Notes under the pieces: model-generated
The model's database searches: none
Told to the model about the DNA's origin: nothing
Seen by the model: the letters and a program-made list of their open reading frames with translations, nothing else
Shown here: piece by piece, positions 20,901-44,851 of the stretch
Layout: each line of letters opens with the position of its first letter
Position numbering within the stretch: position 1 is the stretch's first letter
Origin: Spiroplasma endosymbiont of Poecilobothrus nobilitatus
GTDB taxonomy: Bacteria > Bacillota_I > Bacilli_A > Mycoplasmatales > Mycoplasmataceae
Reading direction: 5' to 3'
Assembly: GCF_964030655.1 (NCBI RefSeq)
Contig: NZ_OZ034915.1
Location: forward strand, 310,001 to 374,000
DNA: 64,000 bases
Program-made: the position numbers and the translations under genes

Positions 20901-21103
20901 AGAAAATATTTAATAAGGTCCATAAATATTATTTACAATCTTTATTATATGCTCCTAGATTTTTCTGACAATAGTTTCATTTTTAATTATAAAAATATCA
21001 ACTTTTTTTCTAGTTTGTTTTTAGTTGGTAAATAATTTGTTAATTTTAACTTGCATTTTAAAAGTAAACTTTATATTATTATTTTAACAACTTTAAAAAG
21101 CAA
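20901..21103. other. Intergenic, AT-rich
   Basis: No gene or clear signal is seen in this 200-base stretch. The promoter of the riboswitch transcript should lie here, for example in the TATTATTATTTTAACA region near 21073-21088, but no -35/-10 pair is convincing. Confidence 0.4.
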
Positions 21104-21250
21104 TTTTGGATGTTACGGGAATTAGGTGTTAATCTTAGGATGTCCCAGCAACTGTAAAGTGGATGAAAGCTAACATCATTCCATTGAGAAAATATTTCTT
21201 GAGAAGGAATAGTGAGTAAAGTGAAACTAAGCCAGTAGACCGATCTAAAA
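21104..21250 (+). promoter_or_regulatory. Cobalamin (B12) riboswitch aptamer
   Basis: The conserved core of cobalamin riboswitches is present in order: GGGAA (21117-21121), GGTG (21125-21128), AATC, the B12-box-like CCCAGCAACTGTAA (21144-21157) and GCCAGTAGACC (21231-21241). A closing helix P1 is visible: TTTTGGAT (21104-21111) pairs over 8 bp, with one G-U, with ATCTAAAA (21243-21250). The family binds adenosyl- or other cobalamins and normally turns off downstream genes. Here the downstream genes are for deoxynucleoside salvage. The core resemblance is strong; ligand and direction of control are inferred. Confidence 0.82.
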
Positions 21251-21656
21251 AAACATTGGTAAAATATCAATGCTGCACTTATAGTTATTATCTCTGGGGT
21301 TAGATGATTAATTATTTATTAGTGAAAACTATTAAATAATAATTTGAAAGACGTCAAAAAGCGTTTTTTAGTTGTTAATTTAAAGCAGTAATCCTATCAA
21401 AAAGTATTATTTAAAAGAAAATAAATAATAAAATTAATTAATAATTAAGTTTAATAGCATTTGATTTAAAATGGTTTTATTTTTGCTATTGTATTAAACT
21501 ATTAATTAAAATAATCGTAGAAATTAAACATCATTTATGTGGATATGCAACAATATTCTTTTTCGTGTTGTTTAAATATCCTTACTTTTTAAATAAAAAT
21601 AGCATTGATAGGTATTTATTGGTAATTAAATTAAGCGGGAAAAAGAGGAATAAAAA
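21251..21656 (+). promoter_or_regulatory. Long leader between riboswitch and deoD
   Basis: About 400 non-coding bases. Hairpins visible: CATTG/CAATG at 21254-21272; a 12-bp stem with one mismatch at 21311-21346; AAAGACG/CGTTTTTT at 21347-21369, which resembles a weak intrinsic terminator and could be the expression platform; AGTTTAATAGCA with TGCTATTG-TATTAAACT near 21450-21505; and GGATAT/ATATCC with AACA/TGTT inside near 21541-21582. No reading frame is convincing. The leader is unusually long for a B12 riboswitch. Confidence 0.45.
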
Positions 21657-22367
21657 ATGACACCACATATTAATGCCAAAAAAGAAGAAATTGCAAAAGT
21701 TGTTTTAATGCCGGGAGACCCATTACGGGCAAAAACCGTTGCCGAAAAATATTTAACAAATTTAAAATTAGTAAATGAAGTTAGAAATATGTTAATGTAT
21801 ACTGGCAAATATAAAAACATTGAGGTAACAATTGCTGGAAGTGGAATGGGTTGTCCAAGCATTGGAATTTATTCATACGAATTATTTAAGTTTTATGATG
21901 TTGATTATATTATTAGAATTGGTTCAGCTGGAAGTTATAATCCAAATATTAAAGTTTATGATATCTTTAATGTTCGTGAAGCATTTGGCGAAAGTAATTA
22001 TGCAAAAATTGCAGCTAATATTGATAGTAATTTAATTGCTGCAAGTGAAAAATTATTTAATGAAATTGAAACTGTATCACAAGCCAAAGGAATTAAAACT
22101 CACACGGGAATTGCTCATTCAGCAGATGTTTTTTATCGTTATGATGATTCATTAGACTTTACTCATGCTAATAAGTTAGATGTTGTTGAAATGGAATCAT
22201 ATGCTTTGTTTACTAATGCAATTGTTACGCAAAAACATGCAGCAACATTATTAACAGTTTCTGACCATCTTGTAACTAAAGAAGTTACTACAGCATTGGA
22301 ACGCCAAAATAATTTTATGACAATGGTTGAATTATCATTAGATACTGCTGTTCAATTAATGGGTTAA
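21657..22367 (+). CDS. deoD: Purine nucleoside phosphorylase
   Basis: The 236-aa hexameric-type enzyme cleaves purine (deoxy)nucleosides with phosphate to free base and (deoxy)ribose 1-phosphate. The phosphate site VLMPGDPLRAKTVAE, the AGSGMGCPSIGIYSYEL loop, IRIGSAGSYN, VVEMESYALF (ribose-binding Glu-Met-Glu) and TVSDHL (catalytic Asp) are all present. Length is typical. The ribosome binding site is AGAGGA. It is the first gene behind the cobalamin riboswitch and is followed after 19 bases by a deoxynucleoside kinase. No defect is seen. Confidence 0.95.
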   Translation: MTPHINAKKEEIAKVVLMPGDPLRAKTVAEKYLTNLKLVNEVRNMLMYTGKYKNIEVTIAGSGMGCPSIGIYSYELFKFYDVDYIIRIGSAGSYNPNIKVYDIFNVREAFGESNYAKIAANIDSNLIAASEKLFNEIETVSQAKGIKTHTGIAHSADVFYRYDDSLDFTHANKLDVVEMESYALFTNAIVTQKHAATLLTVSDHLVTKEVTTALERQNNFMTMVELSLDTAVQLMG

Positions 22368-27400: not shown

Positions 27401-27526
27401 AAAAATAATTAATAAATTAATTAAGAGTTATATGATTTATAACTCTTTTTATTATTCTGTGAAATTAATAGAAAAGAATTATAAAGAAATTATTGGACAT
27501 AAAAAATAAATAGTTAAAGAATAATA

Positions 27527-27636
27527 GGTCGTATAAAGAAAATAAGGGTTTTAGACAAAAAAGAAAAAAATACCTTTTTAATTTATTGAACTAAATAACA
27601 TTTAAAAATAAAAACCCTTATTTTCTTTATACGACC
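27527..27636. mobile_element. MITE-1 copy a, 110 bp with 8-bp target duplication
   Basis: A non-coding element bounded by a perfect 26-bp inverted repeat beginning GGTCGTATAAAG. It is flanked by the direct repeat GAATAATA (27519-27526 and 27637-27644). A second copy lies at 43500. See findings. Confidence 0.88.
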
Positions 27637-27663
27637 GAATAATAACTATTTTATTATTTAATT

Positions 27664-27824: not shown

Positions 27825-27861
27825 AAAAACAACTCTTGTTAAATAAAAGGGTTGTTTTTTT
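27825..27861 (+). terminator. Rho-independent terminator
   Basis: AACAACTC pairs with GGGTTGTT across a 13-base loop, followed by a T-run. It ends some transcript coming from the left; only an 11-codon frame (MYDEATKNNSC) lies directly upstream. Confidence 0.7.
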
Positions 27862-27889
27862 ATTTATAAAACCAAATTATTTATTGTTT

Positions 27890-28047
27890 CAGAGAAAGGA
27901 CAGCATCTTAAATTATTAAAATAGAAACTTTTTATAACAACTTTTTGATACCCTCTTTAAGTTGTTTACAAATTTATTAAATATCTTAGAAATCTTTACA
28001 AAGTGTACCTGTTTTTTATCCAATTTTAAGGTGTTGTCCTTTCTCTG
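27890..28047. repeat. 158-bp element with 13-bp perfect terminal repeats
   Basis: CAGAGAAAGGACA at the left and TGTCCTTTCTCTG at the right, with imperfect extension inwards (CATCTTAAA versus TTTTAAGGTG). TTT flanks both sides. It holds no frame; an internal AACAACTT/AAGTTGTT hairpin is seen. It looks like a MITE or the remnant ends of an IS. Confidence 0.55.
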
Positions 28048-28098
28048 TTTCAGTTAATTAATTTGTTAATAAAAAAACTTAATAAAAGAAAAGAGTAA

Positions 28099-28341
28099 GT
28101 AATAGAAATTAATAAGCAACAAACAATATGTGATGTTAATGATTGTTATAAATTAATATCACTCATTACCGAAGAATTTTTATCAAATAAAATTTTATGA
28201 ACTTGTGAAAAACACAAAGATTTATTAAATCGGACAAAAGATAAAAAACAAAAGCGGTTTTATAAACGCTTAGAAAATTCAAAAATTATCTTTGATGATA
28301 AAACTTGTTATTTTAAACTTTGATTTTATAAAACAACTTAA
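28099..28341 (+). pseudogene. Possible phage gene remnant
   Basis: A frame without a normal start codon runs ICDVNDCYKLISLITEEFLS to CYFKLWFYKTT, ending at TAA 28339-28341. An in-frame TAA lies upstream at 28096, and the nearby ATG at 28128 is in another frame with early TAA. About 70 residues, Cys and Lys rich, not recognised. It may be the 3' part of a lost prophage gene, or not a gene; the putative promoter of the structured RNA lies inside its end. Confidence 0.35.
28305..28332 (+). promoter_or_regulatory. Candidate promoter of the structured RNA
   Basis: TTGTTA (28305-28310), 16 bases, TATAAA (28327-28332). Transcription would begin near 28340, just before the first hairpin of the structured region. 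Confidence 0.4.
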
Positions 28342-28540
28342 TGCAGTGTGGGACGGTTATTTTAAATAACTAAGTGCTTCCATAAGAACATGAGTTTAAA
28401 CTCATTCCCACAGCCATCCGAGGCAAGTACTGAAATAGTGTATGAGGAAAAATGTAAATCGGCGTTGGTTTATTAGAACTAAGCGATAGTCGTGATAAGT
28501 GCAAGGTCAACATCAAACGACAATAAAAAAAGAGATGAAT

Positions 28541-29767
28541 AGAGTGCACACATTTTAGTAAGTACTAATAAAAAGTATTTACTATTTTTTAATTATATCT
28601 TTTTCTTTACGATTTGAATATCATGTATTTCATTTTATAACATCTTGTATATATTATTCATGTGAATTATATATTTTATTATGGATTGTAGCTTTCTTAA
28701 GTAATGAATGAAAACTTTCTATAACAATATTATCTGCACAGTGGTATTTTTTCCCCATTTAAATTATAATGCCGTTAGATAAACATTTATCGTGATAAAT
28801 AGTGGATGTATATTGATATCCGTGATTTGAGTGAATTATTATTCCATTCAGATCTTTTTTTATTAATTTTATTTTATTAATTGCATCATTTAAATTATCC
28901 ATTACTAATTTATTGTCATTATATTTAGATCACTTTACATCAACTATTTTTTTAGTATATCCATCAATAATTGTTGATTGATAATATCTTTCTCATTTTC
29001 AAATTAAATATGTTACATCAGTATATAGTACTGAAAACTTTGTTTTTATATCATTGAATTTACGATTAATTAAATCAGGATATTGCAATAAGCTTTTTTC
29101 TTTATTCTGTTTATAATTTATTTTTCTTCTCATTTTTCTTACATATTCAGGTTGTATTTGATTATCACGCATAATTCTTAAAACTTTTTTTGAATTATAT
29201 TTTATACCATAATCTTCTTTTAAATATTTAGTAATTCTTCGATAACCAAATTGTTTTAAATTTTATTCATAGACTTTTACAATATCATTTATTGCTTTTT
29301 TATCTTTTTTGCTACTGTCATAATTTTTATATTTATCTCAATAACTACGTTTTAACCCTGTTACTTCTAGTAATAATTTTATTGAATATTCACGACAATT
29401 TTGTTTAATAAAAGAGACTATTCTTAGTTTGCTTAATTGTAAAAGTCATGGAGCTTTTTTAATAATTCATACCTTGTTTTATAATATTCTAAATTTCTTT
29501 TGGCAAAAGAAATTTTAGGTCCTTTAGGATTGTTTAATTTTCCTTTTTTATGATTTGTTCATCAAGATTCTACTGTATTTGCATTTATATTATATTGTTT
29601 TGCTACTATTCAACAACTTTTTTGTTTAATTTCCTCAATGATTTTTGTTCTAAATTCTGATGTATATTTGTTATATTTTTGTCCTTTTTTTGCCATATAA
29701 AAATGCACCCCCTATAAAAATTTAACAAAATCTTTTTTTATTTTACTTACTTTTTGGGGTGCAGTCT
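28541..29767 (-). mobile_element. IS-C copy 2 (IS3 family), decayed
   Basis: Ends are TAGAGTGCACACATTTTAG at the left and GGGTGCAGTCTT at the right, partially inverted (GTGCAC/GGTGCA, then AGTAAGTA in both). GAA is found just outside both ends, compatible with a 3-bp target duplication. It interrupts the structured RNA region. The same ends surround the tRNA-Trp nest at 14457. Confidence 0.85.
28600..29694 (-). pseudogene. IS-C copy 2 transposase, several stops
   Basis: OrfA starts at about 29694 (MAKKGQKYNKYTSEFRTK) with an HTH (IVAKQYNINANTVESWWTN) and reaches a stop after YELLKKLHDFYN. OrfB (LSKLRIVSFIKQNCREYSI) has the IS3 features GYRRITKYLKEDYGI, YTDVTYLIW and ADNIVIESFHSLLKK. It is broken by TAA after IVKVYE, after SNGIII and after YNSHE, and the second catalytic Asp is Asn (HSNHGYQYTS). 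Clearly inactive. Confidence 0.82.
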
Positions 29768-30113
29768 TGAACACTTTATAAATAAATTTGCGATAGATTT
29801 GTCCCATCGAGGATGGCGGCGGTTTTAAATAAACCACAAAGCCAGCACTATGATCTTCAAGGTGCAAGTGAATTTATTTTAAAAACTGAACGTTTTGACC
29901 TGAAATGGTGCGGAAGAAGAGAGAGAATTCTCTGGCTTTACCTTATAAAAACAACTGTCGATTATTAAACAAACAATATACCGCCATCGATCACCCCCAG
30001 TGAAACGGATGGCGTAGTAAATAAATAGATAAATACTTATATAACCAATCTTCGCTTTGGCACTTTCACTTGGGAGTGAGTGCCAGCGATTTAAAACTAG
30101 GAGGAATTAAAAA

Positions 30114-30296
30114 ATGATATGTAATAAAGCATTAAAAATTACCAATAAAGATATTATTTATGAACAAATTAATCGTGATTATTTAGATAATTGAGAATTA
30201 AAATTATATCTTAAATTTGGTAATGAAGAACGACATGTTGGTATTAGACGTAGACTTTGACTTAAATTGCAAATGATATGAAATTGATGAGATTAA
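30114..30296 (+). CDS. Small prophage protein, 60 aa
   Basis: Starts MICNKALKITNKDIIYEQ after a strong AGGAGG. Its C-terminus (VGIRRRLWLKLQMIWNWWD) uses four TGA Trp codons and looks like the wrong frame: the overlapping frame at 30235 gives a more natural acidic sequence. One base change may have split an original protein of about 80 aa. Function unknown; first gene of the RecT operon. Confidence 0.5.
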
Positions 30297-30360
30297 AGAT
30301 TTAATTAGTGATTATTTAGAAGATGAAGAAGCAGATTACGAGTTAATAAATTATGAATAA
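30235..30360 (+). CDS. Small acidic prophage protein (frame-shifted continuation?)
   Basis: MLVLDVDFDLNCKWYEIDEI and an acidic tail (DYLEDEEADYELINYE), 41 aa; an in-frame ATG at 30223 could add four residues. No ribosome binding site is seen, which supports this being the C-terminal part of the gene starting at 30114 after a frameshift. The next gene overlaps its end. Unknown function. Confidence 0.4.
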
Positions 30361-30517
30361 AAGATATTTATTAGTAATGAAAGATAAATATAGCTTAAAT
30401 ACTATATATTTTTATACATTTGATGAAGCGAGAATTTATTCTGAAAATTTAAATTATTGTAAAACAACTATTATTGATTTAGAAGACGAAAATATTAAAT
30501 GACAAGGATGTGAATAA
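30353..30517 (+). CDS. Small prophage protein, 54 aa
   Basis: MNKRYLLVMKDKYSLNTIYF to DENIKWQGCE, start overlapping the previous stop. A short single-domain protein with alternating strand-like segments. Not recognised. Tight packing with both neighbours is typical of phage early operons. Confidence 0.55.
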
Positions 30518-30518
30518 T

Positions 30519-30656
30519 ATGTGAAAAGATGAAGATGGCAATGTTTATACCGAAGAAGAATTATTTAATGAAGCACTTGAGGAATGTAATTCAGAAGATA
30601 GTGCTTATGAGTATATTGATACATTAATTATGGAAAAGAATTTGGAGGAAATTTAA
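30519..30656 (+). CDS. Small acidic prophage protein, 45 aa
   Basis: MWKDEDGNVYTEEELFNEAL to MEKNLEEI; strongly acidic and helical. The second codon is TGA (Trp), so it is invisible in the standard code. It starts one base after the previous stop. Function unknown; small acidic phage proteins are often DNA mimics or inhibitors, but there is no evidence for this here. Confidence 0.55.
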
Positions 30657-30658
30657 TT

Positions 30659-31360
30659 ATGGCAGATTTAAAGTTAAATAATGAAGTTAAAAATATTACT
30701 TATCCGTTTTATTTAAAAGGAAATGATTTTAAAGAATTAAGTTTAAAAGCATTAACAATTAAAAAATGAATTGATGAAAATGGGCAAGAATTAGCAGAAT
30801 TTATATATTGACAACAAGCTTGATTAATAAATGGAGAATATAAATCACAATCACTAAAAGATTTAAAATTAATAGTTTCAAAAATTGATTATGTTTTTAG
30901 AGAACCATTAGAATTAATAAAAATTTTTAAAGATGAATTAAATTTTATTAGAAAAGATATTTTAAATTTAGAAAATAATATTAAGAATAATCATGATTCT
31001 TTAAAAAATAGTGTAATTAATATTCAATTTCAAAAACAAAATGAAATTATTGAAACTCATAAAAAAGAACAATTTTTAGAAATTAAAAGTGTAGCAAAAC
31101 AAGAGCAAGAATTAAAAATTATTACTAGTAATTTTCGTAAAGATAAATTATTAATTAAAGATATTGAAGTTATTGGTATTAATGATGATTTTTTACAAAA
31201 TGCTGATAAATTAGAACTTATTAATATTATTAAAAACTATTTAATTGTTGATGAACAAATTGTTAAAAATGAAATTAAAGAACAATGAGATAGTAATAAA
31301 GATATTAATTTAATTGGTATTAAAGGTATTAATTTTAAAATAAATAAAGGAGAAAAATAA
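30659..31360 (+). CDS. Prophage protein upstream of RecT (DUF1351-like)
   Basis: The 233-aa protein starts MADLKLNNEVKNITYPFYLK and is largely charged helix (LIKIFKDELNFIRKDILNLEN; KKEQFLEIKSVAKQEQEL) with coiled-coil character. The position directly before recT, and size, match the DUF1351 family that accompanies RecT in Gram-positive phages; the family assignment is inferred from context more than from motif. GGAGGAAAT precedes the ATG. Several TGA Trp codons. Intact. Confidence 0.65.
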
Positions 31361-31361
31361 T

Positions 31362-32276
31362 ATGGCAAATATAGTAGAATTTTTAAGAACAGATAAGGCA
31401 AATGATTGAATAAAAAGTAAATTTTCAAATGAAAATGAAATTGCAAGATTTAAAAGTAATATTGTAGCAATATCAAATAGTAATGAATTATTACAAAAAG
31501 CAGACCCAAAAACTATAATGACTGCTTGTTATCAAGGTGTTTTATTAAACTTACCTATGGAAAGACAATTTGGTTATGCTTATGTTGTTCCATATAACAC
31601 TAAAATAACAAGAAATATTAATGGCCGCGAAATACAAGAATGAATTAATCAAGCTCAATTTCAAATGGGTTATAAAGGTTATATTCAATTAGCACAAAGA
31701 AGTGGTCAATATTTAGATATGTCAGTATCAGATGTTAGAACTGGTGAATTAGTAAATTATGATCGATTAAAAGGAACTAGTTTTAATTGAATACAAAATG
31801 AAGATGAAAGAGAAAAATTATCAATTATTGGTTATGTAGCATATTTTAAAATGGTTAATGGTTTTGAAAAAACATTATATATGACAAAAGAACAAATGGA
31901 AAATCATTTTATGAAATACTCTAAAACTTATGCTAAAAATAAATCATTTTATATTGCTAGTTTTGATGAAATGGCATTAAAAACTGTATTAACATCATTA
32001 TTAAGAAAATGAGGTATTATGTCTGTTGAATTACAACAAGCACATAAATCAGACCAAGCAGTTATTACAACTAATGATGAAAAGATTTATATTGATAATG
32101 ATGGCAATGTTGGTAAAAATAAGGGGCAAATGAGCGACAAAACCCTATCAAATAATATAAGTAATAATATCATATATAATGAAGAAATAGTAGAAACTAA
32201 TGACAATGTGGTTAAAGAAGAAGATATATCAAATGTAGTACCAGTTAATAGTGAAGATGCTTTTGAATGAGCATAA
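31362..32276 (+). CDS. recT: RecT-family single-strand annealing protein
   Basis: The 304-aa protein anneals complementary single strands during phage recombination. Family features are NPKTIMTACYQ-like ADPKTIMTACYQGVLLNLP, RQFGYAYVVPYN, QFQMGYKGYIQLAQRSGQY (the RecT core), YFKMVNGFEKTLYMTKEQM and FDEMALKTVLTSLLRKWGI. The C-terminal 70 residues are acidic and Asn-rich, a usual tail for binding partner proteins. Reading requires TGA as Trp at several points. It starts two bases after the upstream gene. No RecE-type exonuclease is visible nearby. It appears intact although the prophage is decayed. Confidence 0.93.
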
Positions 32277-32731
32277 AAATAGGTATTGGCCCATCAGGAA
32301 CTGGCACTACAGCTATTTCATTAATTAATGACAATAAATTAATTGATAAATATGAATATAAAAATAATAACTGAATTACGTAAACCGATATTATTTTAGA
32401 TGCTTTAAGATTAGATGCAATTATTAATATTGAAGATTGTTTATATACAGCTGCTAATGCTAGTAAAGATAGAGATGATTTATTAAAAGTAATTGGAGCA
32501 GTTAAATACAATACAAAGAAAGTAAGCAATATTAACTGATTATCACCAAAACATACTAAATCAGTTGTTAAGAATATTGAAAATTTAAGTAAATATAATG
32601 ATAGTTGTTTATGAGAATTTGAAAAAGATTTTAATTTAACTTATCAATATGGTAAAGGTTGAAAATATAATAATGAAAAAATAAGTAATCATTTACGAGA
32701 TGCAATTATTATTGCTAATTATGAGAGGTAA
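32267..32731 (+). pseudogene. Phage P-loop-like protein, in-frame TAA
   Basis: Starts MSIKIGIGPSGTGTTAISLI, overlapping the recT end. The GPSGTGTT stretch is a Walker A motif in which the invariant Lys is Thr. TAA at 32381-32383 interrupts it (NNNWIT then TDIILDAL); the frame then stays open for 116 codons to IIIANYER. Phage NTP-binding proteins of the Sak4 type sit beside recombinases, so this may be a relative; that is inference. Damaged in both motif and frame. Confidence 0.6.
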
Positions 32732-32735
32732 TATT

Positions 32736-32924
32736 ATGAAGCAATCATATAATCAAAAAACAGGAAAATATTATTCTTTTAAAATTCGGAATGTTAATAT
32801 TTACTTAAATGAAAATTAAGAACAAGTTTGAAATGAATTAAATTTTGATACTTATTCTCAAAAAATAGAATATCTTATTAATTATTATATTGTAAATAAT
32901 AAAGGAGATGACAAAAATGAGTAA
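32736..32924 (+). pseudogene. Small prophage protein with in-frame TAA
   Basis: MKQSYNQKTGKYYSFKIRN to YLNEN, then TAA at 32817-32819, then EQVWNELNFDTYSQKIEYLI to NKGDDKNE. About 62 codons in all. The end overlaps the start of the next gene. Not recognised; looks like a decayed phage gene. Confidence 0.5.
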
Positions 32925-33105
32925 TAATTATATTTTATGTTATCGTTCAGAACAAGGTAATCGGCCTTGTAAAACTCCGCTTGATGAATATATAACTGGT
33001 ATTGATCCCAAAGATGTAGATTTAAATTCACTATGAAATTGAGAGTATTTAATTAAAACATATGGCGAAAAGAATTTAATTATATTAAAAACAAATAAAA
33101 AATAA
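32917..33105 (+). CDS. Small prophage protein, 62 aa
   Basis: MSNNYILCYRSEQGNRPCKT to EKNLIILKTNKK, preceded by AAAGGAGATGA. Two Cys residues (LCYRS, RPCKT) and Gly/Asp-rich middle part. Intact. It is the last gene of the prophage operon and is followed at once by a terminator. Function unknown. Confidence 0.6.
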
Positions 33106-33128
33106 CCTTAATTCTGGTTATTTTTTTA
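33099..33128 (+). terminator. Terminator of the RecT operon
   Basis: AATAACC / GGTTATT stem with a TTAATTCT loop and a following T-run. It overlaps the stop of the last prophage gene. Confidence 0.8.
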
Positions 33129-33160
33129 AATACTATTTGTTAGTTTTCTAATAGCGTCTT

Positions 33161-34383
33161 TGGAATGGCAACACTTTTTAGGACACTTTTTATATAGACA
33201 TTTGTTTTCTAAAAGTAACTGGAGATAAATAATTTAAACTGCCATGAATTCTAATATTGTTATATCAATGCACAAAATCAAAAAGTTCGTATTTTAATTG
33301 TGTTAAATTTTTAAATTTTTTACCCTTAATAAATTCAGTTTTAAAAGTTTTGTAAGTTGTTTCAGCCACAGCATTATCATAAGGGCAGCCTTTATTGCTT
33401 AATGATCTTTTAATATTAAAAGTTATTAAAATTTCATCAATGATTTTATTTTTAAACTCATTACCACGATCAGTATGAAATAGAGTTATTTGATTTAATG
33501 GTCGTGTTATTTTATGAAAAGCTTGTTGGACCAGTTCGGCTGTTTTATTCGGCCCAGCACTATAAACAATTATTTCACGATTAAACAAGTCAATTAATAA
33601 ACAAATATAATGTCATTTAGCGCCAACTTGAACATATGTTAAATCACTAACAATAACTTCATTAGGTTTTTTGTTGTTAAATTGACGATTTAAAATATTA
33701 TTAATTTGGTCATTATTGACTGTTGTTTTATGATTATGATATTTTAATTTGGTGTATTTAGAAACCAAATTATTTTTGATCATAAAGAATCTGATTTTTC
33801 GCCGCGATAAGATGATATCTTTTCTGTTTAAAATAACTTTAATTTTGCGAGCCCCATAAATTTTGTGGCTTTTATTAAAGGCACTGATAATTTCTTGTTC
33901 ATAATTATTAACTTACTTGTTAATACATTTATTAGTTTGATAATAATACGTTGATTTTGATAAACCCAAAATCTTACATATTTTTCTTACTGAATATTTT
34001 GTTTTGTTGTTATTAATTATTGTTATTTTTTGGCCATTATCAGTGCGGCTTGCTTTAAAATGTCATTTTCCATTTTCAAGTCTTTAAGTTATTTTCGTAA
34101 AGTTATTATTTCATTTTCTTCTAGTGTGCGATTGTATTTTGCTTTAAATGAACCAGAATTATTATAATTTTTAACTCAACTATAAATAGTTGGTTTTGGT
34201 AAATTATATTCTTGCCCTAGATTAATAACACTTTTACCATTTTTATATAGCATGACAATTTGTTTTTTTAAATTCTTCATAGTATGAAGTTTTATTTCCC
34301 ATTTTTATATTCCTTCTTTCTTAATAATTTTATCTAATTTTGAAGTCTATATAATTATGGTCCTAATAATTGTAGCCTATCCA
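33161..34383 (-). mobile_element. IS-A copy 6, decayed
   Basis: Full-length by ends (TGGAATGGC left, GCCTATCCA right, 1223 bp) but with inactivating mutations. Flanking triplets differ (CTT and ATA). It joins the prophage end to a 5'-truncated IS30, so the junction is a rearrangement or deletion. Confidence 0.88.
33190..34297 (-). pseudogene. IS-A copy 6 OrfA/OrfB, both broken
   Basis: OrfA has an extra A in the KKQIV codons near 34265 (frameshift) and a TAA in place of GAA in LRKEL near 34090. OrfB (33190-33969) has TAA for CAA in NKQVNN near 33913, while the DDE part is open. This is an older copy than copies 3-5. Confidence 0.82.
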
Positions 34384-43096: not shown

Positions 43097-43477
43097 GTGT
43101 CAAAACGCCAAGAACGCATTAATATTATTAATTTGTTATATCGTCACTTTGTTTTACAACATGATGTTTTAACAACAAAACAAGAAGCATATGATTTCTC
43201 GCAAATGGTAACAACTTCTGTGGAAACAATTCAAGTTGAGGAAATATTAGCAAATCTATCAGATATTATTGCGAAGATTAATCAACATTTAAAACCAGGA
43301 TGAAATTTTGCTCGCTTAAGTAATTATCATAAAGCTGTTTTAGTATATGGAGTTTATGAAATTTGTTATCAACAATTAGCAAAGGCAATTGTCATTAATG
43401 AAAGTTTAGAAATTTTAAAATTATATGGCGAAGATACTGATTTTAGTTATATTAATTCAGTCTTAGATCAAGTTTAA
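43097..43477 (+). CDS. nusB: Transcription antitermination factor NusB
   Basis: The 126-aa helical RNA-binding protein acts with NusE (S10) on rRNA operons. Family features are MSKRQERINIINLLYRHFVL at the start and WNFARLSNYHKAVLVYGVYEI with IVINESLEILKLYGEDTDFSYINSVL cut here as INESLEILKLYGED and SYINSVLD. It starts with GTG, eight bases after AAAGGAG. Slightly shorter than usual (about 135 aa). MITE-1 copy b inserted 22 bases after the stop. Confidence 0.9.
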
Positions 43478-43499: not shown

Positions 43500-43610
43500 G
43501 GTCGTATAAATAAAATAAGGGTTTTAGACAAATAAGAAAAAAAATACCTTTTTAATTTATTGAACTAAATAACATTTAAAAATAAAAACCCTTATTTTCT
43601 TTATACGACC
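43500..43610. mobile_element. MITE-1 copy b, 111 bp with 8-bp target duplication
   Basis: About 97 percent identical to copy a. Flanked by GAATTAGT on both sides (43492-43499 and 43611-43618), a different sequence from the duplication at copy a. The left repeat has one mismatch. It may also serve as a terminator for nusB because of its long hairpin. Confidence 0.9.
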
Positions 43611-43648
43611 GAATTAGTTCTTACAAATAAAAATGGATGATATTTACT

Positions 43649-44787
43649 TTAATTTTGTAGAAAACTCTTGATGAAATAAAAAAAATCATCAATATGATAA
43701 CTTTAAAAGAAAATTATATAAACTTTTAATATTGTTATTTAACTTTTTTATACGTTAAAATATAATACCGATGATTGTTGGTTTGGTGTTAAACCTTTAT
43801 GCTGGTATTTTCATTTTCAGAGATTTAAATAATTTTGAATGTTCGTGAAACCTAAGCCATGATAATGAATTGAGGATTCTTTAAGATTTGATTGTAATTT
43901 ACTAATTTTATTTAACTTCCGATAACTAGCATCAGGATTTGTACTAGTTTTAGTTGCTAATAAAATAGAATTTGTTTGTTTTGCTACTAATAAATATAAT
44001 GGTTGCATGTCAGAAATAATAATTGAATTTTCTTTGATTAATTGTTTATTAATATTTTCAATAATTCACTGTTTTTGTAATCGTTTTGTGTTGGTTGATT
44101 TAACATAAATATTATTATTGCTATCAACAGCCATTTGAATACAACATTTAGTGTTGGTTGAAAATGAATCAAGATGAATTTTTCTTTTATCAAATTTATC
44201 TTTAAAATTACCTTTGTGGATTTCTTTAATAAATGTTTCATCGATTTGAATTTGGCCATTTAACGTTTTAAATTTTAATTGGGTGTTTTCTAATTGTTTT
44301 GATTTCATTATTTTTTAGCGATTATATCAAGCGGTTTTCGGTGATGTTTTAATAAAGTGGGAAATCATTTTACTAGATTGGCCTAATAATGAAATTTGAA
44401 TCAATAAATTTAACTGTTCATAATTTAAATGACTTCAATACGTAAAATGATCACGAAAAGCATCAAAACTAGCACGACATTTTTTGCATAAATATTTTTG
44501 TTTTCCTTCAGGATTATGACCATTTTTAACACAATAAAAAGATTGACAATTAGGACATTTAATACCTTTATCCCTAAATTTTTGATCAATTTCATTTAAG
44601 CGTTTTTGTTTTTTAATTAATTCTGCTTCTTTTTTGACTTTTTCATGAAATTATAAAAATTGATCATCTGTTAAACTATTTATTAATTCTTCAATTATTT
44701 TTTCCATTAATTATTCACCTCTTATATTAAAAATATACCTAATTTTAGGTATATTTTATAAATATCAATAGTTTTCTACAAAATTAA
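43649..44787 (-). mobile_element. IS-D copy 5, full length (1139 bp)
   Basis: Both terminal repeats present; length equal to the intact copy at 54251. The transposase has two stops, so it is non-autonomous. Confidence 0.9.
43748..44707 (-). pseudogene. IS-D copy 5 transposase, two TAA stops
   Basis: TAA at codon 19 (about 44651-44653, as in copy 3) and TAA for CAA in NRQKIMK (about 44316). The zinc ribbon, QIDETFI and ISDMQPLY remain. The shared codon-19 stop shows that inactive copies have been multiplied, presumably in trans by an intact copy. Confidence 0.88.
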
Positions 44788-44851
44788 AGAAATATTCTGA
44801 GCGTATTTATTAATTAAAACTGAATAAATATAGCTAGGAAAGGGGTAACCT

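Follow-up and report, generated by a model that had tools for sequence, protein, structure and literature searches.

Identification of MITE-1 copies in the window

The window analysed here, a stretch of 64,000 nucleotides (bases 310001-374000 of the single-contig, 1,434,273-bp genome G000, read with genetic code 4), contains two copies of a short inverted-repeat element, MITE-1. The relevant features, in window positions, are as follows.

27527..27636, + strand: MITE-1 copy 1, 110 bp, with perfect 26-bp terminal inverted repeats, GGTCGTATAAAGAAAATAAGGGTTTT
27519..27526, + strand: left target duplication of copy 1, GAATAATA, present once in the empty site of the relative G001
27637..27644, + strand: right target duplication of copy 1, GAATAATA
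43500..43610, + strand: MITE-1 copy 2, 111 bp, 26-bp repeat with 1 mismatch, 22 bp past the nusB stop codon
43492..43499, + strand: left target duplication of copy 2, GAATTAGT, also found at the copy at genome position 245245
43611..43618, + strand: right target duplication of copy 2, GAATTAGT
43097..43477, + strand: nusB (Pfam NusB, E 3e-14), upstream of copy 2, in a segment duplicated in the genome
26271..27401, + strand: IS1595-like insertion sequence (IS) adjoining copy 1, with ends TTTAATTTTGTAGAAAACTCTTGAT unrelated to MITE-1; not the partner
43648..44788, - strand: second IS1595-like IS, adjoining copy 2; not the partner
27854..33161, + strand: broken left-part remnant of phage A (MaM-2019a type), 78-93% identical in pieces to the G000 prophage (BLASTN)

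MITE-1 consists of two 26-bp ends flanking a short AT-rich core, measures 110-112 bp over its whole length and contains no ORF, as is characteristic of a MITE. The coordinates, the perfect 26-bp repeat of copy 1 and both 8-bp repeats reported in the initial annotation proved exact; its description of two near-identical copies with perfect 26-bp repeats fits copy 1, but copy 2 is 111 bp long with one mismatch. Its statement that the window has no complete element with these ends also holds, but a phage A remnant is present nearby. This remnant begins 218 bp to the right of copy 1 and contains a structured RNA-like region, ORF233 and RecT, while its first 75 bp are missing and, with them, the terminal repeat. 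Elsewhere in the window, a cobalamin riboswitch match (66.8 bits, 21091-21262) was detected upstream of an ORF (21657-22367) that resembles, as judged by eye, a purine nucleoside phosphorylase.

Insertion of MITE-1 in the genome

A search of the genome with the element yielded 12 copies of MITE-1 at 11 sites with unrelated flanks. Both ends were kept in 10 of the 12 copies (L019 lacks its first 2 bp and L020 its right end), and the copies differed from the consensus in 0-5 alignment columns, except for the truncated L020. The nusB segment is duplicated, with the copy at 43500 and that at genome position 245245, 108 kb away, being 99% identical over ~1.2 kb. Because the flank and the GAATTAGT duplication are common to both, these two copies are one insertion event that was duplicated afterwards.

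The sister genome G001 demonstrates the insertion of copy 1 directly, since its corresponding locus is empty and reads ATAAATAGTTAAA, one GAATAATA, then ACCATTTTATTATTTAAT; the IS1595-like IS ending 126 bp to the left of copy 1 is likewise missing there. At L016, which lies inside an open reading frame, the relative G005 retains the empty site TTTAGGAACAATTAAG, giving the 8-bp target AACAATTA, of which the left copy in G000 is 2 nt short. For L015, a paralogous stretch in L014 provides the uninterrupted target CAACAATTATCTTC with the 8-bp target ACAATTAT, the left copy of the duplication being whole and the right copy lacking TAT. The sequences flanking L018 are separated by 2.46 kb in G003, by 2.5 kb in G005 and by 7.3 kb in G002. 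MITE-1 sits exactly at the joint of a ~2.5-kb deletion in G000, which has kept no more than the first part of a 913-codon gene that G003 and G005 still possess; this position accounts for the lack of a duplication at L018.

In the searched and fetched stretches of genome on which these statistics are based, perfect 8-bp duplications were found at 2 of the 9 independent two-ended sites, and at L015 and L016 the empty sites resolved 8-bp targets with one copy 2-3 nt short. The duplication at L012 measured 6 bp, and none was seen at L011, L014 and L017. The proposal that a non-autonomous element had transposed, as opposed to an ancestral terminator being shared, is right and has direct support from the empty sites that had been suggested as a check (G001 at copy 1, G005 at L016). 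With its dispersed copies, its target duplications and the uninterrupted sites seen in G001, in G005 and in a paralogue, MITE-1 is a genuine non-autonomous DNA transposon that carries no genes.

Two further observations concern the insertion sites. At L015, L016 and L079, one copy of the 8-bp duplication was 2-3 nt short while the elements themselves were nearly unmutated (L079 is phage A in G002, where the loss is deduced from similar host sequence elsewhere), which possibly reflects imprecise gap repair. An inversion between L012 and L014 was also considered, as 8 bp are common to the sequence left of L012 and that right of L014, and was dropped since the reciprocal pair has no such match.

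Matching ends on phage A

Searching the relatives with MITE-1, as had been recommended, led to its likely partner. Seven matches in G002 turned out to mark the left termini of a large repetitive element, which encodes RecT, a terminase and further phage proteins; a 447-aa protein assigned to Pfam UPF0236 is encoded at its right end. Two prophages of G000 are pertinent here.

G000:143806-164074, 20,269 bp: intact prophage of phage A, with an open UPF0236 gene
G000:752298-784485, 32,188 bp: phage C, with duplication ATAATTTT and ends GGTCGTATAAATAAAAG..

The transposase gene of phage A lies at the right end of the phage. Phage A belongs to the MaM-2019a type of temperate dsDNA phage. Its prophage in G000 is closely related to Spiroplasma phages, being 80-94% identical over most of its length to OL689226 and OL689227 (Spiroplasma phage MaM-2019a clones NSRO-P1 and NSRO-P2), and a passage of PMC12453411, citing Ramirez et al. 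2023, describes MaM-2019a as a phage reported from phage-like particles of S. poulsonii.

The MITE-1 end matched the end of a phage A remnant at G000:180054 and the phage A end of G008 at 24/26 positions each, those of the G002 phages at 22/26, and those of both the intact G000 prophage and MaM-2019a at 21/26, the best match among 20,000 random 26-mers being 17/26. The MITE of G008 was identical (26/26) both to the G008 phage end and to the MaM-2019a ends. MITE-1 therefore has ends in common with a candidate autonomous partner, as expected of a MITE, although these are not identical within its own genome, where no intact phage carries the exact MITE-1 end (best 21/26) and the 24/26 match belongs to a remnant.

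Evidence on phage A movement came from its joined ends and its duplications. In the particle-derived OL689226 and OL689227, both phage ends are joined by 5 bp (ATAAT or ATTTT), and a chromosome stretch of G002 (L132) contains the same kind of joint with the spacer TTTAT. Phage A DNA thus exists with joined ends, a form that we read as a circle by analogy with what is known for the transposase group. Insertions of phage A in G002 are flanked by the 8-bp duplications AAAAAATT and TAAATTTA, and a third pair of ends, 33 kb apart, by AAAAATTT, the duplication being partial or absent in the remaining G002 pairs.

The MITE core, sought in phage and IS sequence, gave weak AT-rich matches only and none that was clear. 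No match to the core was returned by an exact-pattern scan of a genome contig collection (from which the source genome was possibly left out), and a viral contig collection was scanned with the terminase without a hit. Because the core has no clear phage match, the data do not establish that MITE-1 arose from a phage by simple internal deletion.

Near the left terminus of phage A, a segment of ~450 nt (L135:732-1201) that folds strongly and is comparatively rich in G+C was noted, which is kept in the G000 prophage as well as in P1 and P2, and in window pieces 28481-28537 and 29772-30096, and which is possibly a structured phage RNA; Rfam had no match for the MITE or for this RNA-like region of the phage. 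Moreover, in another MaM-2019a clone (L136; OL689230, MSRO-P1), an IS30-like transposase is annotated where the UPF0236 gene would lie, so that the integration enzyme has apparently been exchanged among related phages.

Assignment of the transposase family

The transposases of phages A, B and C (phage B is described below) scored above the cut-off of the NCBIfam model ICE_Mbov_0401 (NF046004) and below that of the ISLre2 model, and the partner transposases exceeded the cut-off of Pfam UPF0236 (PF06782). Residues D190, D282 and E395 were invariant among 11 diverse members, a pattern that fits a DDE triad as predicted from the alignment. Among PHROGs, no family matched the phage A and B transposases. 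Several further, broken UPF0236 genes were found in G000.

Members of the p-MULT group, to which these models point, are described as having repeats of 18-39 bp with a terminal C, duplications of 8-9 bp and circles with spacers of 6-10 bp (PMC3942029). The elements studied here show 26-bp repeats ending in ...ATACGACC and 8-bp duplications in MITE-1, MITE-2 and phages A, B and C, and the spacer of the joint in phage A measures 5 bp (OL689226/7, L132).

MITE-2, phage B and the choice of target

A second family, MITE-2, is present in G000 in 8 copies with the ends GGGYGARTAAA... and has a core of ~60 bp in common with MITE-1 and also with the G008 family, while its ends differ from those of MITE-1. 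Perfect 8-bp duplications flank 6 of the 8 copies, compared with 0 of 56 mismatched flank pairs. The MITE-2 ends match those of phage B at 25/26 positions. Phage B is represented in G005 by two elements of 19 kb, which carry a UPF0236 gene, disrupted in one of the two copies (the second), and are flanked by the duplications ACCTGTTC and GTTAAAAC; its terminase match is weak (PF04466, below cut-off), and it is counted as a phage on the strength of this match together with its size and layout.

In ISLre2/TnGBS, insertion is promoter-proximal, 15-17 bp upstream of the sigma-A -35 (PMC3942029, Guerillot et al. 2014), and mycoplasma ICEs of the p-MULT group insert at random (PMC7466169). At 4 of 7 independent MITE-2 sites, a -35/-10 pair was found whose -35 begins at a distance of 15 bp (expected 0.12, p 3e-6), a p-value that is descriptive, as the promoter-spacing test was framed after the pattern had been seen in MITE-2 and in PMC3942029. 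For phage B, one of the two sites has TTGCAA-17-TATAAT at 15 bp, and the other has TTGACA at 15 bp with no -10. For MITE-1 and phage A, the corresponding test gave no convincing result: a -35 at 15 bp was seen at 2/9 MITE-1 sites (p 0.01, one site within a gene) and the phage A ends lacked the promoter spacing (1/32 left, 0/23 right).

As a separate observation, MITE-2 at L021 (G000:1426433) and L026 (G000:200765) occupies the same target within duplicated segments in opposite orientation, which suggests that the element was flipped via its inverted ends.

Proposed mechanism and alternative explanations

We consider a UPF0236/Mutator-like transposase of phage A to be the best explanation for the helper of MITE-1, and a likely one. 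The transposition of MITE-1 and the matches of its ends are established by the sequences, and mobilisation by the phage enzyme is what we infer. The reading of mobilisation in trans draws on the similarity of the ends, the length of the duplications, the co-residence of element and phage, and the parallel of MITE-2 with phage B. A DDE transposase of the UPF0236/Mutator-like (p-MULT) kind would recognise the MITE-1 ends, excise or copy the element, presumably via a circle, and insert it at an 8-bp staggered cut, yielding the 8-bp target duplications. The enzyme would most likely be supplied by phage A, from the right-end transposase gene with which the phage would integrate in the same way, and would act on MITE-1 in trans, this being favoured over a lost stand-alone relative. 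MITE-2 would relate to phage B as MITE-1 does to phage A, including the sites 15 bp upstream of the -35.

A variant with the same enzyme family, which we regard as unlikely though the strongest of the competitors, holds that the helper is a stand-alone UPF0236 IS or phage C, not phage A, and that MITEs and phages share an ancestral transposon end. Phage C does reside in G000 with a UPF0236 gene alongside terminase, portal, capsid/protease and tape-measure genes (the element also includes a long masked (N) stretch), further broken UPF0236 genes exist in the genome, and the MITE core is not phage sequence. Moreover, phage C, too, has the outermost GGTCGTATAAA in common with MITE-1, so that phage A is a probable and not a certain helper. 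However, the subterminal AAGGGTTTT of MITE-1 occurs in phage A (24/26) and not in phage C (20/26), and the matching of ends is separately true for G000 with phage A, G008 with phage A and MITE-2 with phage B. Pattern searches found no other small complete element with GGTCGTATAAAG ends.

Movement of MITE-1 by an IS1595- or ISL3-family transposase, with the adjoining IS1595-like IS (Pfam DDE_Tnp_IS1595) as parent, is very improbable. A transposase of these families had been proposed in the initial annotation, and the 8-bp duplications and GG ends do agree with IS1595/ISL3; furthermore, the IS1595-like IS has ~103 end matches in the genome and lies within ~300 bp of 7 of the 12 MITE-1 copies. 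Against this, its ends TTTAATTTTGTAGAAAACTCTTGAT match MITE-1 at 7/26 positions, its distance from MITE-1 varies between copies, and both IS and MITE-1 are absent from the G001 copy 1 site. The unrelated ends (7/26) contradict this resident IS1595-like IS as the parent, and the family proposal, examined on that IS, is not supported, the matching ends being those of phages with a UPF0236 transposase. The proximity at 7/12 loci compares with ~5% expected at random positions (uncorrected for intergenic preference), and the IS1595-like IS may favour the same intergenic sites as MITE-1. This IS apparently has a MITE of its own, a short palindrome made of two of its ends (TTTAATTTTGTAGAAAACTCTTGAT...) at L118, downstream of G000:752298.

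Finally, the view that the repeats are ancestral intergenic hairpins (terminators) spread by segmental duplication, to which the strong hairpin predicted for the MITE-1 transcript (-30.2 kcal/mol, z -7.2), the position of copy 2 directly past nusB and the one segmentally duplicated copy pair would be congenial, is scarcely credible in the face of 11 sites with unrelated flanks, of the 8-bp target duplications and of the exact empty sites that relatives and the paralogue retain, the last of which contradict a terminator-only reading. It is possible that the predicted MITE-1 hairpin could in addition end transcription past nusB.

Beyond the phage A transposase as helper of MITE-1, we lean modestly toward a more general model for the gene-less Spiroplasma elements, in which one ~60-bp core has been combined with the ends of differing phages, and each element owes both its mobility and its choice of target to the transposase of the phage whose ends it bears. 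For MITE-1 and the G008 MITE this would be phage A (no fixed target), and for MITE-2 phage B, with insertion 15 bp upstream of the -35. The elements would then be parasites of phage integration enzymes, and the phages Mu-like ones that run on a Mutator-type transposase.

Comparison with known systems

MITEs are normally traced to insertion sequences. The best partner of MITE-1 is instead a temperate phage that would integrate by a Mutator-type transposase. If this is true, phage infection would drive the spread of small elements, insertion close to promoters and gene loss in a genus of symbionts that evolves fast, an example of gene loss being the 2.5-kb deletion with its 913-codon gene at which MITE-1 sits, and the integration mode of Spiroplasma phages becomes testable. 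MITEs and the UPF0236 transposase group are already known as such, and in the literature searched, which included few subscription papers, no UPF0236 transposase was described as the integration enzyme of a temperate phage with matching miniature elements.

The closest known system is MaM-2019a, a phage of the kind represented by the G000 prophage, with matching transposase gene and terminal repeats; its public records annotate the transposase/UPF0236, but terminal repeats, joined ends, a target duplication and miniature derivatives all go unmarked in them. The p-MULT systems (IS256, ISLre2/TnGBS and mycoplasma ICEs; PMC3942029, PMC7466169) are alike in transposase family, repeats and duplications and, if the joined phage ends are indeed a circle, in a joined-end circular form; MITE-2 and phage B also resemble ISLre2/TnGBS in their insertion ~15 bp upstream of a -35. 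In contrast to these systems, the transposase is here carried by temperate phages and not by ISs or ICEs, the spacer is 5 bp and not 6-10 bp, and there are gene-less derivatives. The MCLas MITEs of Candidatus Liberibacter asiaticus (PMC12566600), likened here by description alone, were similarly studied together with the prophages of a bacterium restricted to its host, and both occupied and empty sites are known for them, but no phage UPF0236 transposase is named there as their helper. Phages of the Mu type are likewise temperate, use many integration sites and encode their own DDE transposase. The target duplication of Mu is 5 bp; the phages described here differ in their transposase family, in duplicating 8 bp and not 5 bp, and in having a joined-end form.
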